A stretch of 64,000 bases of DNA from Bacteroidota bacterium (GTDB lineage Bacteria > Bacteroidota > Bacteroidia > M30B66), in contig JAIXUS010000018.1 in assembly GCA_027483445.1 (NCBI GenBank), forward strand, positions 186,001-250,000, in the 5' to 3' direction. The notes under the pieces were generated by a model that was not told the origin of the DNA, did no database searches, and was given only the letters and a program-made list of their open reading frames with translations. The position numbers and the translations under genes were made by a program. Below, one piece after another: positions 42,050 to 48,956 of the stretch (positions are counted from its first letter, which is position 1; each line of letters starts with the position of its first letter).

Positions 42050-44734
42050 ATGAAAATTAAAATCGGTATTCTCTTTGGCGGTAACTCCAAAGAACGCGAA
42101 ATCTCTTTTGCCGGTGGTCGCACCGTTTACGATAACCTCAACAAAAGCCTCTTCGAAGCCGTGCCGCTCTTTGTCGACAGCTTCAATCAATTTATTCTGC
42201 TCAACTGGGAATACATCTACAAAGGAAGCATCCGCGATTTTTACCCCATTCCATCAGAAGTTCCACCCAGCCCGGGCGATTATCAAATTTATGCCGAATC
42301 GCTCCCCGATGATCAAAGCGGATCCATGTCGGATAAATTGGGACGAAAACTCGAATTCAGCGAGCTTTCCGAGCTAATCGATGTCGCCTTTCTCTGTCTC
42401 CATGGTCCAAACGGCGAAGATGGCCGCATTCAAGGTTTACTGGAGTTTCTGGGAATTCCGTACACGGGCTCAGGCATTTTGCCAAGTGCTGTTGGAATCA
42501 ATAAAATTGTACAGAAGCAACTGATGCTCAAAGCCGGATTTAACAGTCCGCGGTTTTTTACACTCCAACGCGAGACGTGGATCAGGCACCGAAATGTAAC
42601 CTCTGTAATCGCTCAAATCGAGGCCCATTCAGGCTTTCCGGTTGTCGTTAAATCGCCCACTCAAGGCTCTTCCATTGGGGTTAGTGTAGTTCAGGCCGCC
42701 CAGGCGGATGACCTTAGCAAAGCCATCGACCGCAGTTTCTTTATTCGGCAACTCAGTGCCTTGGAATGGAACGCCTTCACCCCTTCGGAACAGAACAATT
42801 GGGTACGCCAAACCTGCGACATTCGCGAAGGCATAGGCATTCCACTGTTGTTGAATGGAGTTAAAATCCTCCACCCCGATACACTCGAAACCGCCATTCG
42901 ATCTGCCTTTGCCCACGGTCAAAACGAGCTCCTGCTCGAATCGCTCGATGCCGAAAGCGAGGTGATGCTCGAAGGATTTATCGAAGGCAAAGAATTTTCC
43001 TCCATCGTGATTGAAGACTTGAACGGTAAACCAATCTGCCTTCCCCCAACCGAGATTCGCAAAGGCAAAGAGGTGTTCGACTACCGTTCGAAATACCTGC
43101 CCGGTTTGAGCCGGAAAATCACACCCATCGAACTGCCCGATGCCGACTTACAGCGCATTCGAAAAACCTGCGAACACCTGTTCACCGAACTTGGATTTGG
43201 AGTGTACGCCCGTATCGATGGATTCATCAGCCCGAAGGGCGAAATTTTCCTGAACGACCCAAACACCACCTCGGGAATGATGCCGTCATCTTTCTTTTTT
43301 CACCAGGCCGCCGAGATTGGGTTCAACCCTTCACAATTTATCACCTATATTCTCTACACTTCACTCCGGCGAAGGAGTATCGAATTCAAGTTCAATGGGC
43401 GCGCCGAAAGCCTGTTGGCAAGGCTCGATGAGCGTATGCATCACCTTAGCGCACAAACCCGGCACAACAAGCGCATAGCCGTTGTGTTTGGCGGGTATTC
43501 TTCCGAACGGCATATTTCTGTGGAAAGCGGCCGGAATGTGTATGAAAAACTCTCTTCTTCGGATGTATTCGAACCAATTCCGGTTTTTCTTACCGGCAGC
43601 GACAACAACCACGAGTTGTACACGTTGCCTATCAACCTGATGCTCAAGGATAATGCCGATGATATCAAGGAAAAAATCGAGCATTTCCGCATCCATCCAA
43701 TTATTCGGGAAATTATCGACGAATGCGGAGAGCTAACCCGAAAGTTTGGCGATGTGAATAATCTGCGCGCACCGACCCGTATCAGTTACACCGATTTAGC
43801 CGGTTTGGTGTCAGAAGTATTTATCGCCTTGCATGGCCGTCCAGGCGAAGACGGTGCTTTGCAGCGCGAACTTCAAAAGGTGAATTTGCCCTATAATGGT
43901 TCCGATGCCGATGCCTCTTCGATTACCATTGATAAGTTCAGAACCAACGAAATTCTGAAAGCCCACGGGATGCTTGTGGCTGAGCATTTTCTGGTGCAGG
44001 AAGCCGAATGGAATTCACAACCTGATGAAGTGCTGCGAAAGGCCGAAAATATTGGCTATCCGTTAATTGCCAAACCTGTCGACGATGGCTGCTCCTCCGC
44101 TGTAAAAAAACTGCACAATGCCGATGATTTCAGGGCTTTTGCCCGATTGATTTTTCGGGAAGATGACGCACTCGATCTCGGTGCAGCCGAACGGTTGAAA
44201 ATCAAACCCAAAGAAGAATTCCCGCAAAAACGGCAGTTTCTGGTTGAGTCGTTGATTTCGGCCAATGGTGCCCACACATTCCTTGAAATCACTGGAGGAA
44301 TGCTCACACATCGTGAGGCCGACGGCTCTGTGCGGTACGAGGTTTTTGAGGCCTCCGAAGCGCTTTCGGAAGGCGAGGTGCTCTCGCTCGAAGAGAAGTT
44401 TCTGGCCGGTCAGGGGCAAAACATCACGCCCGCACGTTACGCCCGCGATTCACAAGTGCGGCAACGCATCTCCGATCAAGTGAAAGCAGAGCTCGAAAAA
44501 GCCGCCAGAGCCCTCCATGTACAAGGCTACTGCCGCATCGACGCCTTCGTTAGGGTTTTCGATACCGACCGCACCGAGGTAATCTTTATCGAGGTAAACT
44601 CACTGCCTGGAATGACACCGGCCACCTGTATCTTTCACCAAACTGCAATCAATGGTTACAAGCCTTACGATTTTATTGAAAAAATCATGACTTTTGCAGA
44701 AAAGTCGGCCCTCCCGGGAATGCAGCCGGCCTGA
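42050..44734 (+). CDS. Tandem D-alanine--D-alanine ligase-like protein (two ATP-grasp units)
   Basis: 894 residues from ATG at 42050, more than twice the usual Ddl length (about 310-370). Unit 1 (about 1-465) has ILFGGNSKEREISFAGG, CLHGPNGEDGRIQGLLEFLGIPYTGSG, VVVKSPTQGSSIGV and a metal site reading LNDPNTTSGM. Unit 2 (about 470-885) repeats the pattern: VVFGGYSSERHISVESG, ALHGRPGEDGALQRELQ, LIAKPVDDGCSSAV and the canonical IEVNSLPGMTPAT. Only unit 2 keeps the usual ExN at the metal site; unit 1 has Asp-Pro-Asn. It sits before the PASTA and RluD genes, where Bacteroidota usually carry ddl, so it is probably the cell-wall ligase or a derivative. An upstream in-frame start at 41939 is rejected as it lacks family sequence. 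Confidence 0.88.
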   Translation: MKIKIGILFGGNSKEREISFAGGRTVYDNLNKSLFEAVPLFVDSFNQFILLNWEYIYKGSIRDFYPIPSEVPPSPGDYQIYAESLPDDQSGSMSDKLGRKLEFSELSELIDVAFLCLHGPNGEDGRIQGLLEFLGIPYTGSGILPSAVGINKIVQKQLMLKAGFNSPRFFTLQRETWIRHRNVTSVIAQIEAHSGFPVVVKSPTQGSSIGVSVVQAAQADDLSKAIDRSFFIRQLSALEWNAFTPSEQNNWVRQTCDIREGIGIPLLLNGVKILHPDTLETAIRSAFAHGQNELLLESLDAESEVMLEGFIEGKEFSSIVIEDLNGKPICLPPTEIRKGKEVFDYRSKYLPGLSRKITPIELPDADLQRIRKTCEHLFTELGFGVYARIDGFISPKGEIFLNDPNTTSGMMPSSFFFHQAAEIGFNPSQFITYILYTSLRRRSIEFKFNGRAESLLARLDERMHHLSAQTRHNKRIAVVFGGYSSERHISVESGRNVYEKLSSSDVFEPIPVFLTGSDNNHELYTLPINLMLKDNADDIKEKIEHFRIHPIIREIIDECGELTRKFGDVNNLRAPTRISYTDLAGLVSEVFIALHGRPGEDGALQRELQKVNLPYNGSDADASSITIDKFRTNEILKAHGMLVAEHFLVQEAEWNSQPDEVLRKAENIGYPLIAKPVDDGCSSAVKKLHNADDFRAFARLIFREDDALDLGAAERLKIKPKEEFPQKRQFLVESLISANGAHTFLEITGGMLTHREADGSVRYEVFEASEALSEGEVLSLEEKFLAGQGQNITPARYARDSQVRQRISDQVKAELEKAARALHVQGYCRIDAFVRVFDTDRTEVIFIEVNSLPGMTPATCIFHQTAINGYKPYDFIEKIMTFAEKSALPGMQPA

Positions 44735-44739
44735 TATAC

Positions 44740-45537
44740 ATGTCGTTCAAAGAATTTCTCCAATCTCGAAGCTTTTGGAAGCACTTTTTGCTGGCTAACA
44801 GCGTTGTTGCTCTGTTGGTGATTTTGGGAATGGTCTTTCTTAACTTTTATACCTTACACGATAGCAAAGTTGAGGTGCCCGACTTTAAAGGCATCTACAT
44901 CAGCGATCTCGACAAGTTCGTGGAAGGCCACGATGTGAGCTACGAAATTGTCGATTCGGTTTACAACATGAAGAAAGACAAAGGAACGGTGATCGAACAA
45001 GACCCGGCTCCGGGTTCTACAGTTAAAGAAGGGCGTACCATTTATCTTACGGTAAATGCCATGCTCAACCAACAAGTGAAAATGCCCGATCTGGTCGACC
45101 TTAGTCTCCGTCAGGCAACATCGTTACTCGAAACCTACGGCTTAAAGGTAGGAGCAATTCGGTATCGTGAAGGCTTGCCGCCGGTAATGGAGCAGCTCTA
45201 TAAAGGGAAACGGATTGCGTCAGGAACCATGGTCGACAAAGGCTCTTCCATCGATTTGGTGGCCGGTTTAGGCGATAGCAAAGGACTGATTCCGGTTCCC
45301 GATTTGTTTGGTTTAACGCTTCCTGAAGCCAGGGCAATCCTCGTTTCAAAAAGCTTGCTGGTGGGTGTGGTACTCCAGGATGCCACCGGCAGAGATACAC
45401 TCAGTGCCCAAATTTATCGTCAAGATCCTCTGCCCGGGGCCGAAGGTTTGTACGACGGTGCTCCTGTTAATCTATGGCTAACCGGTAGCCCGGAGGTTCT
45501 TGAAAATGAAAAAAATCAGACGTTGGAAAATGAATAA
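44740..45537 (+). CDS. Membrane-anchored PASTA-domain protein
   Basis: 265 residues. A short cytoplasmic N-terminus and one transmembrane helix (VVALLVILGMVFLNFYTLH, about 23-41) lead to three PASTA domains in the periplasm: about 45-108 (VEVPDFKGIYISDL), 109-180 (VKMPDLVDLSLRQATSLLETYGL) and 183-250 (IPVPDLFGLTLPEARAILVSKSL). PASTA modules bind peptidoglycan stem peptides or link to divisome proteins. No kinase domain is present. It starts 5 bases after the tandem Ddl stop, which fits a shared cell-wall role. Confidence 0.93.
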   Translation: MSFKEFLQSRSFWKHFLLANSVVALLVILGMVFLNFYTLHDSKVEVPDFKGIYISDLDKFVEGHDVSYEIVDSVYNMKKDKGTVIEQDPAPGSTVKEGRTIYLTVNAMLNQQVKMPDLVDLSLRQATSLLETYGLKVGAIRYREGLPPVMEQLYKGKRIASGTMVDKGSSIDLVAGLGDSKGLIPVPDLFGLTLPEARAILVSKSLLVGVVLQDATGRDTLSAQIYRQDPLPGAEGLYDGAPVNLWLTGSPEVLENEKNQTLENE

Positions 45538-47356: not shown

Positions 47357-48420
47357 GTCATTGGGATGAAGAGGAATTGCCGGATGGATTGCCTGAAGGC
47401 GATGACGGTGAGCAGGATGAGCTTTTTGAGCATCACCGGATTGTAGCCGACAAAGGGCAGGAGTTGCTCCGGGTCGATAAGTTTTTACAGAACCGTCTGG
47501 AGAAAACCTCCAGAAGCCGCATTCAGAATACAGCAGATGCCGGAAATATTCATGTGAATGGCAAGCCGGTAAAATCGAATTACCGCGTAAAGCCCGGTGA
47601 TGTGGTGGCTGTTGTTTTTGCGCATCCACCGAGAGTGCTGGAGGTTTTGCCCGAGAATATACCGCTCAATATCGTGTATGAAGACGATGATGTGGTGGTG
47701 ATTAATAAGGTGGCCGGTATGGTTGTTCACCCTGGCTATGGCAACTACACCGGAACATTGGTCAATGCCCTGCTCTACCATTTTCAGCATTTACCCTTGT
47801 TTCAGGATAAGCAGCCTCGCCCGGGACTTGTGCACCGACTCGATAAGAATACTTCGGGTATTATGGTGATGGCCAAAAACGAATTTGCACATGCTCATTT
47901 GGCCCGTCAGTTTTTTGAGAGAACAACTGACCGGAAGTATGTAGCCTTGGTATGGGGCGATTTCCAAGACGATTCCGGCACCATTACCGGTCATATCGGA
48001 CGCGATATCCGCGATCGGAAGCTGTTTGCTGTTTTCCCTGATGGTTCTCAAGGAAAGCATGCCATTACTCATTACACGGTATTGAAGCGGTTTACTTATG
48101 TAACACTGGTCGAATGTAAGCTGGAAACCGGTCGTACGCATCAAATTAGGGTGCATCTAAAGCACACAGGTCATCCACTGTTCAACGACGATACCTATGG
48201 AGGCGATCAGATTCTGAAAGGCACAACATCGGCCTCTTACAGGGCCTTTATTCAGAATTGTTTTACAGTATTACCCCGACATGCGCTCCATGCTAAGTCG
48301 CTGGGATTTACGCATCCTGTGAGTGGAAAACGGTTGTTTTTTGAATCGGAATTGCCTGCCGATATGCAGGCTGCCATTGAGAAGTGGCAAACGTACGCGA
48401 CTCATCGCATTCAAGGTTAA
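47353..48420 (+). CDS. RluA/RluD-family 23S rRNA pseudouridine synthase
   Basis: 355 residues; ATG overlaps the upstream stop by 4 bases (ATGA). An acidic leader (about 1-35) is followed by an S4 RNA-binding domain (VDKFLQNRLEKTSRSRIQNTADAG) and the catalytic core. That core has GLVHRLDKNTSGIMVMAKN with the active-site Asp in HRLDxxTSG, and ETGRTHQIRVHLKHTGHPLFNDDTYGG near the end. These are RluD-group features; E. coli RluD modifies uridines 1911, 1915 and 1917 of helix 69. The stop overlaps that of the convergent exosortase gene through a shared TTAA. Confidence 0.94.
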   Translation: MSHWDEEELPDGLPEGDDGEQDELFEHHRIVADKGQELLRVDKFLQNRLEKTSRSRIQNTADAGNIHVNGKPVKSNYRVKPGDVVAVVFAHPPRVLEVLPENIPLNIVYEDDDVVVINKVAGMVVHPGYGNYTGTLVNALLYHFQHLPLFQDKQPRPGLVHRLDKNTSGIMVMAKNEFAHAHLARQFFERTTDRKYVALVWGDFQDDSGTITGHIGRDIRDRKLFAVFPDGSQGKHAITHYTVLKRFTYVTLVECKLETGRTHQIRVHLKHTGHPLFNDDTYGGDQILKGTTSASYRAFIQNCFTVLPRHALHAKSLGFTHPVSGKRLFFESELPADMQAAIEKWQTYATHRIQG

Positions 48421-48956
48421 GCTTGGGCTTCAGGCTTTTTCTTGAGAATAAATTGCACCCAGACAACCCAGAGAATAAAGATTACAATGTAAATGAGGTT
48501 GTTGAACAAGTCATGGGCTTCCATCTGAACAAATGTTCCCGAGGCAAATGTTTGTTTTGTCAATAAAACAACTCTTGTAGTATTGATAGCCAGAATGAGT
48601 AGGGCACCAAGAGGAATAAACCATAACTTGGATTTAAGTGGGCCTGGATAAGAAATAATTAGGCTTGCGAAACCATACGTGAGTCCAAATCCAACGCAAG
48701 GGTTGCCAATGATAACTCCGTATGAGCCAATAATAGCCAGACTGTTATAACCATGGACAAGGTCATAACTCATTGCTTCAAGCACTGCAATACTCGACCA
48801 TTGCAAGGCTTTCAGGAAAATATGATAGTTGAATTCCCAAAGATTCTTGTATATCTCGATGTGATAAATTAAGAAGTTCTCCGAGACCAACCAAAAAAGA
48901 TAAAAGCCAAAAATCTTTATTAAAAAAAGATTTATGGCTTTTGAATTCGTTTCCAC
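48417..48956 (-). CDS. Exosortase/archaeosortase-family protein, linked to a PID-CTERM-like substrate
   Basis: 179 residues with about five transmembrane helices. The catalytic triad of the exosortase family is visible in order: Cys87 in GNPCVGFGLTYGFASLI, Arg128 in ILAINTTRVVLL, and His148 in EAHDLFNN. Exosortases cleave the C-terminal sorting helix of substrates and may ligate the new end to a lipid or sugar. It is short for the family (usually 250-300), consistent with the single-domain archaeosortase-like types found in Bacteroidota. The gene 23 bases upstream encodes a tiny protein with a matching tail. The assignment rests on motif order and context; the exact subfamily is uncertain. 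Confidence 0.85.
   Translation of the reverse strand: METNSKAINLFLIKIFGFYLFWLVSENFLIYHIEIYKNLWEFNYHIFLKALQWSSIAVLEAMSYDLVHGYNSLAIIGSYGVIIGNPCVGFGLTYGFASLIISYPGPLKSKLWFIPLGALLILAINTTRVVLLTKQTFASGTFVQMEAHDLFNNLIYIVIFILWVVWVQFILKKKPEAQA

Follow-up and report, generated by a model that had tools for sequence, protein, structure and literature searches.

A ligase gene found in a 64,000-nucleotide window of a Bacteroidota genome (the window being the whole stretch of DNA that was analysed) encodes two complete D-alanine--D-alanine ligase (Ddl) units in one chain, and in much of the class Bacteroidia the sole Ddl found is such a tandem, with an active site in the second half that is altered and does not vary. 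Ddl is essential for the cell wall in most bacteria and is a drug target. Judged from residue conservation and gene content, unit 1 is predicted to be a D-Ala-D-Ala ligase and unit 2 a second, probably active ligase with another specificity, a reading to which we assign a probability of about one half. Natural truncated and replaced versions of the tandem are available for comparison, and two questions become testable, namely why a duplicated ligase unit is retained and whether an undescribed wall-precursor end exists.

An initial annotation, made from the sequence of the window, had described the whole Ddl layout as occurring twice in this chain, and both the Pfam matches of each half and the comparisons with solved structures bore this out (Table 1). 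The complete chain contains PF01820 (Ddl N-terminal domain) twice and PF07478 (Ddl C-terminal domain) in four stretches. Scanned alone, units 1 and 2 scored 92.2 and 72.5 bits with PF01820 (cut-off 34.6) and 115.3 and 72 bits with PF07478 (cut-off 24), respectively. With the NCBIfam model TIGR01205 (cut-off 245.65) the whole chain reached 370.3, and units 1 and 2 taken alone scored 222.3 and 154.6, both below the cut-off; the name given to the chain by the NCBI models is plain D-alanine--D-alanine ligase. Solved Ddl proteins were sequence matches of each half. The AlphaFold model of the chain had a mean pLDDT of 84.8 and a pTM of 0.86; its residues 1-450 matched 3e5n and 4me6 (Z 33.3 and 32.8, respectively) and its residues 472-894 matched solved Ddl structures with Z up to 36.7. 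At the level of the model, the Ddl fold is present in both units, which are about 26% identical to each other within the chain.

Table 1. Positions in the window of the tandem Ddl gene, its units and active-site loops, and the adjoining PASTA gene.
Feature	Position	Strand	Description
Tandem Ddl gene	42050..44734	+	894 residues; ATG at 42050, stop at 44734; open frame and Pfam families
Unit 1, full Ddl unit	42050..43414	+	Residues 1-455; PF01820 and PF07478; model match 1-450
Unit 1 flexible active-site loop (339-357)	43064..43120	+	F343-D344-Y345, K348-Y349; low pLDDT; Y at the Y216 position in 114/114
Unit 1 metal loop NDPNTTSGM (402-410)	43253..43279	+	D403 in place of DdlB E270
Unit 2, full Ddl unit, altered pocket	43460..44731	+	Residues 471-894; PF01820 and PF07478; model match 472-894
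Unit 2 ATP loop DDGCSSAV (678-685)	44081..44104	+	C681 in place of DdlB S150; C in 114/114
Unit 2 flexible active-site loop (773-791)	44366..44422	+	LSLEEKFLAG; F784 in place of DdlB Y216; low pLDDT
Unit 2 metal loop EVNSLPGMT (848-856)	44591..44617	+	E270 and N272 positions kept in 114/114
PASTA protein	44740..45537	+	PF03793, three stretches; five bases after the Ddl stop

Residues were counted over 114 distinct full-length doubles after alignment of their units to E. coli DdlA and DdlB (DdlB numbering is used hereafter). The roles of the DdlB residues are those we presume them to have, the contacts of Glu15 and Arg255 and the Phe/Tyr switch aside, and S150 and Y216 of DdlB are taken by us to be two of 'the three'. 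Apart from the substitutions given here, the ATP, metal and catalytic positions are retained in both units across all 114 doubles. In unit 1, E15, H63, K97, S150, G153, E180, E187, Y212, K215, Y216, R255, D257, N272, G276 and S281 are unchanged in 114/114 and K144 is kept in 113/114, with the metal ligand E270 replaced by D in 114/114 doubles and also in 4/4 genes that consist of unit 1 and a stub of unit 2 (see below). In unit 2, E15, H63, K97, K144, S151, E180, E187, K215, R255, D257, E270, N272 and G276 are unchanged in 114/114, the equivalent of E187 (E746) being placed by alignment alone. Glu15 and Arg255 adjoin the bound inhibitor in DdlB (PMC5717164).

Three substrate-side positions of unit 2 are changed, each in 114/114 doubles: S150 to C, Y216 to F and S281 to T. 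Two loop tyrosines are gone as well, Y210 being L in 114/114 and Y212 being L in 113/114. Among 44 single Ddl-like sequences (Bacteroidota and E. coli DdlA), S150, S281 and E270 occur in 44/44 and Y216 in 43/44; the exception at 216 (locus L062) has W, lies on a very long branch in the tree and is probably not a Ddl. The initial annotation had proposed that the two units may use different substrates, and the differences at substrate-side residues fit this idea; its interpretation as a whole is partly supported. Aligning both units with known Ddl proteins did uncover such differences, although the altered pocket lies in unit 2, the one with the canonical motif, and not in unit 1.

Both units are under purifying selection. 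Among close pairs without saturation, dN/dS ranged from 0.04 to 0.18 in unit 1 and from 0.03 to 0.25 in unit 2; of the 12 pairs examined, one was identical and several were saturated. On average, two unit 1 sequences are 58% identical and two unit 2 sequences 59%. The low dN/dS and the invariant sites rule out unit 2 as a decaying copy. One tree placed units 1 and 2 together on one side (support 96), and another, unrooted tree drew unit 2 separately on a long branch; a single internal duplication is likely from these sequences. Two Ddl units would have been fused early within a lineage of Bacteroidia and afterwards mostly inherited.

By a score proxy, 172 of 395 Bacteroidia genomes, with 41 family codes among the matches listed, are taken to carry the double; the proxy (E ≤ 1e-90; 176 genomes and 42 family codes, minus four stub genomes of family f11) stands in for a reading of each protein, and the partial matches of G001 and G512 are excluded. 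At E ≤ 1e-10, 347/395 Bacteroidia genomes had a match to the protein among those listed, many of the weaker ones presumably through an ordinary single Ddl. No double was found outside the Bacteroidia in a draw across the phylum (class make-up not stated), in which matches at E ≤ 1e-60 occurred in 8/395 genomes, all of them Bacteroidia. In a scan of named genomes, the best 80 loci were all near-full matches to the double, mostly from Bacteroidota metagenome genomes, and included Pontibacter ruber strain JC213 and Pontibacter sp. HSC-36F09. An assembly artefact is ruled out, given that the architecture is repeated in many genomes, that of P. ruber JC213 among them. The order is unit 1 followed by unit 2 without exception. 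Measured from the beginning of unit 1, the 128 frames, some of them truncated at locus ends, have a median length of 899 residues.

Forty-five chosen genomes were used for PF01820 counts: 31 with the double, four with the stub form and ten with a single Ddl. PF01820 is a fair probe for Ddl, because among 14 control genomes it was present in 10/10 bacteria and 0/4 archaea. Each of the 31 double genomes gave two matches, and each of the four stub and ten single genomes gave one; the double was the only ddl found in all 31. It lay in one open frame in 30/31, the remaining one spanning two contigs. The genome that harbors the window (4.26 Mb, listed completeness 100%) has two PF01820 matches, both inside the frame described here, and its PF07478 matches elsewhere come without PF01820; the genome search that the initial annotation had suggested, for a separate normal ddl, was thus run and returned none.

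In four genomes of family f11, representing three genera, the gene encodes unit 1 followed by a tail of exactly 110 residues, at which the chain ends. All four tails match the N-terminal region of unit 2 (E 7.8e-8, 1.3e-4, 2e-4 and 0.007, against 0.52 for the best of 1000 shuffled tails), and the tail is constrained to a degree similar to unit 1, with pS 0.88 vs pN 0.056 in the closest pair. No other PF01820 match was found in these four genomes, and since they lack a further detectable ddl, unit 1 of this type, with its D at position 270, very probably suffices to form D-Ala-D-Ala. The contrast between NDPNTTSGM in unit 1 and EVNSLPGMT in unit 2, pointed out in the initial annotation, is present as described, whereas the former motif fails as a mark of a degenerate half, the same E to D change being found in 4/4 genomes that have unit 1 and the stub as their only ddl. 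The early contrast is in fact reversed: because unit 2 holds the altered pocket and the stub genomes live on unit 1, it is unit 1 that looks like an ordinary ligase. Its sequence and the genomes that keep it alone strongly indicate that unit 1 serves the cell as its ordinary D-Ala-D-Ala ligase. The stub itself has perhaps been retained for a structural reason, and its conservation suggests that in the complete tandem, too, this portion of the unit 2 N-terminal domain probably lends support to unit 1. In the trees the four stub genes fall among unit 1 sequences, adjoining family f10 and Pontibacter; a clade of the sampled unit 1 sequences without them was not rejected by the AU test (p 0.50), so their descent from a double is argued from the stub itself.

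Replacement of the tandem is seen in families f6, f88, f95, f101 and f102, in each of which some genomes have the double and others a single Ddl of a different type. In f102 a single ligase that scores above an equivalog cut-off lies four bases ahead of a PASTA gene, and two doubles of this family likewise adjoin PASTA. Such replacements imply that one ordinary Ddl can serve the cell in place of the double. Over long times the cell can do without unit 2, which has been lost in f11, and in genera of these five families the double is absent and a single Ddl present; both observations weigh against the reading preferred below.

A second ligase acting on another substrate fits unit 2 best, because it combines a full catalytic kit, a changed pocket and long-term constraint. 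Under this preferred reading unit 1 would make D-Ala-D-Ala, and unit 2 would be another ATP-grasp ligase that very probably remains catalytic and has a pocket altered once and then fixed (C, F and T at 150, 216 and 281); it would most likely link D-Ala to another partner or take a different D-amino or D-hydroxy acid, and its Phe at the switch position between dipeptide and depsipeptide activity speaks for such a specificity. The main rival, which we regard as somewhat unlikely, is that unit 2, lacking ligase activity, acts as a structural or regulatory partner in the role of the second subunit of a Ddl dimer; it would bind ATP and perhaps a D-amino acid, and would tune or stabilise unit 1. The absence of loop tyrosines 210 and 212 could indeed mean that the activity of unit 2 is altered or lost; together with the three changed substrate-side residues, and with the loss of unit 2 in f11 while its N-terminal stub stayed constrained (which suggests structural service to unit 1), it speaks for such a partner. 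However, both ATP lysines, K215, R255 and all three metal ligands are kept in unit 2 of 114/114 doubles, and these retained sites count against it, since in a non-catalytic unit some of them should have disappeared.

An unlikely alternative is that both units make D-Ala-D-Ala as a covalent pseudo-dimer, with the labour split by affinity or feedback and no new product. Canonical Ddl works as a dimer, and the single canonical ligase that takes the place of the double in some relatives indicates that D-Ala-D-Ala alone suffices there, both of which are in keeping with this idea. It is opposed by the pocket of unit 2, which differs without exception at 150 and 281 from unit 1 and from the 44 single sequences; at 216 the singles have 43 Y and one W.

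A narrower form of the preferred reading, which we hold to be distinctly doubtful, takes unit 2 for a natural ligase that forms depsipeptides (D-Ala-D-lactate or D-Ala-D-hydroxyacid) or other mixed products and is joined to an essential D-Ala-D-Ala ligase; if true, a large share of the Bacteroidia would produce two wall-precursor end types from one protein. To our knowledge, loss of the loop tyrosines is not a feature of known lactate ligases. In lactic acid bacteria a single active-site Phe or Tyr sets depsipeptide versus dipeptide activity (PMC5996685). Among the D-Ala-D-Lac ligases (VanA type; Leuconostoc LmDdl2, 1ehi), unit 2 shares the switch Phe of the Leuconostoc type in 114/114 doubles, so that from sequence a depsipeptide product of unit 2 is a fair, specific guess. 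In the structural comparison of the model, 1ehi heads the list of unit 2, level with the Thermus Ddl (Z 36.7 each). On the other hand, the remaining loop residues of D-Ala-D-Lac ligases differ from those of unit 2, and the D-Ala-D-Lac model NF000206 gave 87.4 bits for unit 2 and 187.6 for the whole chain against a cut-off of 550. A Van-type pathway was rejected, as VanX-like M15 peptidases are not linked with the double: none was found in the host genome at E ≤ 1e-6, and they occurred in 6/31 double, 4/4 stub and 5/10 single genomes.

Very improbable is a sequential action like that of the carbamoyl phosphate synthetase halves, in which the dipeptide made by unit 1 would become the substrate of unit 2 and yield a tripeptide or other conjugate; a chain of two ATP-grasp units whose order is fixed recalls CarB, whose tandem arose by internal duplication (PMC11915815), but MurF, the usual user of the dipeptide, is present in 45/45 genomes with or without the double, and loss of unit 2 is tolerated. 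Replacement of MurF by unit 2 is likewise ruled out, MurF-type matches in 41 of these 45 genomes being above the cut-off.

Compared with known systems, each unit resembles DdlA and DdlB (ATP-grasp; PF01820 and PF07478) in both domains, in fold and in most catalytic and metal positions, and the chain differs from them in having two units, with D at E270 in unit 1 and C, F and T at S150, Y216 and S281 in unit 2. The chlamydial MurC-Ddl fusion also holds a Ddl fused in a single polypeptide, but the partner there is MurC and here a second Ddl, and the MurC-Ddl model gave 184.9 against a cut-off of 1015. The large subunit of carbamoyl phosphate synthetase, CarB, shares the presence of two ATP-grasp halves per chain; CPSase_L_D2 remained below its cut-off (18.2 vs 19.8 bits) and whole-chain superposition was poor (TM 0.41 by query, rmsd 16.6). 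No published description of a double Ddl was found in the literature searched, and the search for muropeptides of Pontibacter yielded nothing on point. As far as searched, the family is known and the architecture is an annotated yet undescribed variant.

With regard to gene placement, the initial annotation had set the gene before PASTA and RluD genes: PASTA does follow immediately, but the RluD-like gene is the third downstream and not next to it. The two genes beyond PASTA encode a protein that carries a type IX sorting tail (45533) and an S4-domain pseudouridine synthase (47353). Counting only loci with at least 900 bases downstream, PASTA is the next gene after 56/111 doubles, 1/36 singles (mostly of other classes) and 0/4 stub genes; a fused case was not counted as a fusion. 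In that case (L049:1501-5052, + strand, genome G187) the double Ddl continues stop-free into a membrane segment and a PASTA domain, giving a single frame of 1184 residues; among the 114 doubles, only this one has R at the K144 position of unit 1. Another double (L050:217-3006, + strand, genome G175) carries an insert of about 30 residues right before the unit 1 metal loop, which resembles a translated short repeat.

Two MurF-type genes were identified in the host genome (G000:C84:71181-72422 and G000:C69:7811-9067), their frames being 446 and 822 residues long. The longer type, probably a MurF-alanine racemase fusion, also occurs in most other genomes listed, with double or single Ddl. Finally, positions 48417-48956 of the window (- strand) encode a small protein of the exosortase/archaeosortase family, which scores above the cut-off of TIGR04178 and is nearest to exosortase X, yet below the cut-off of the exosortase X model.
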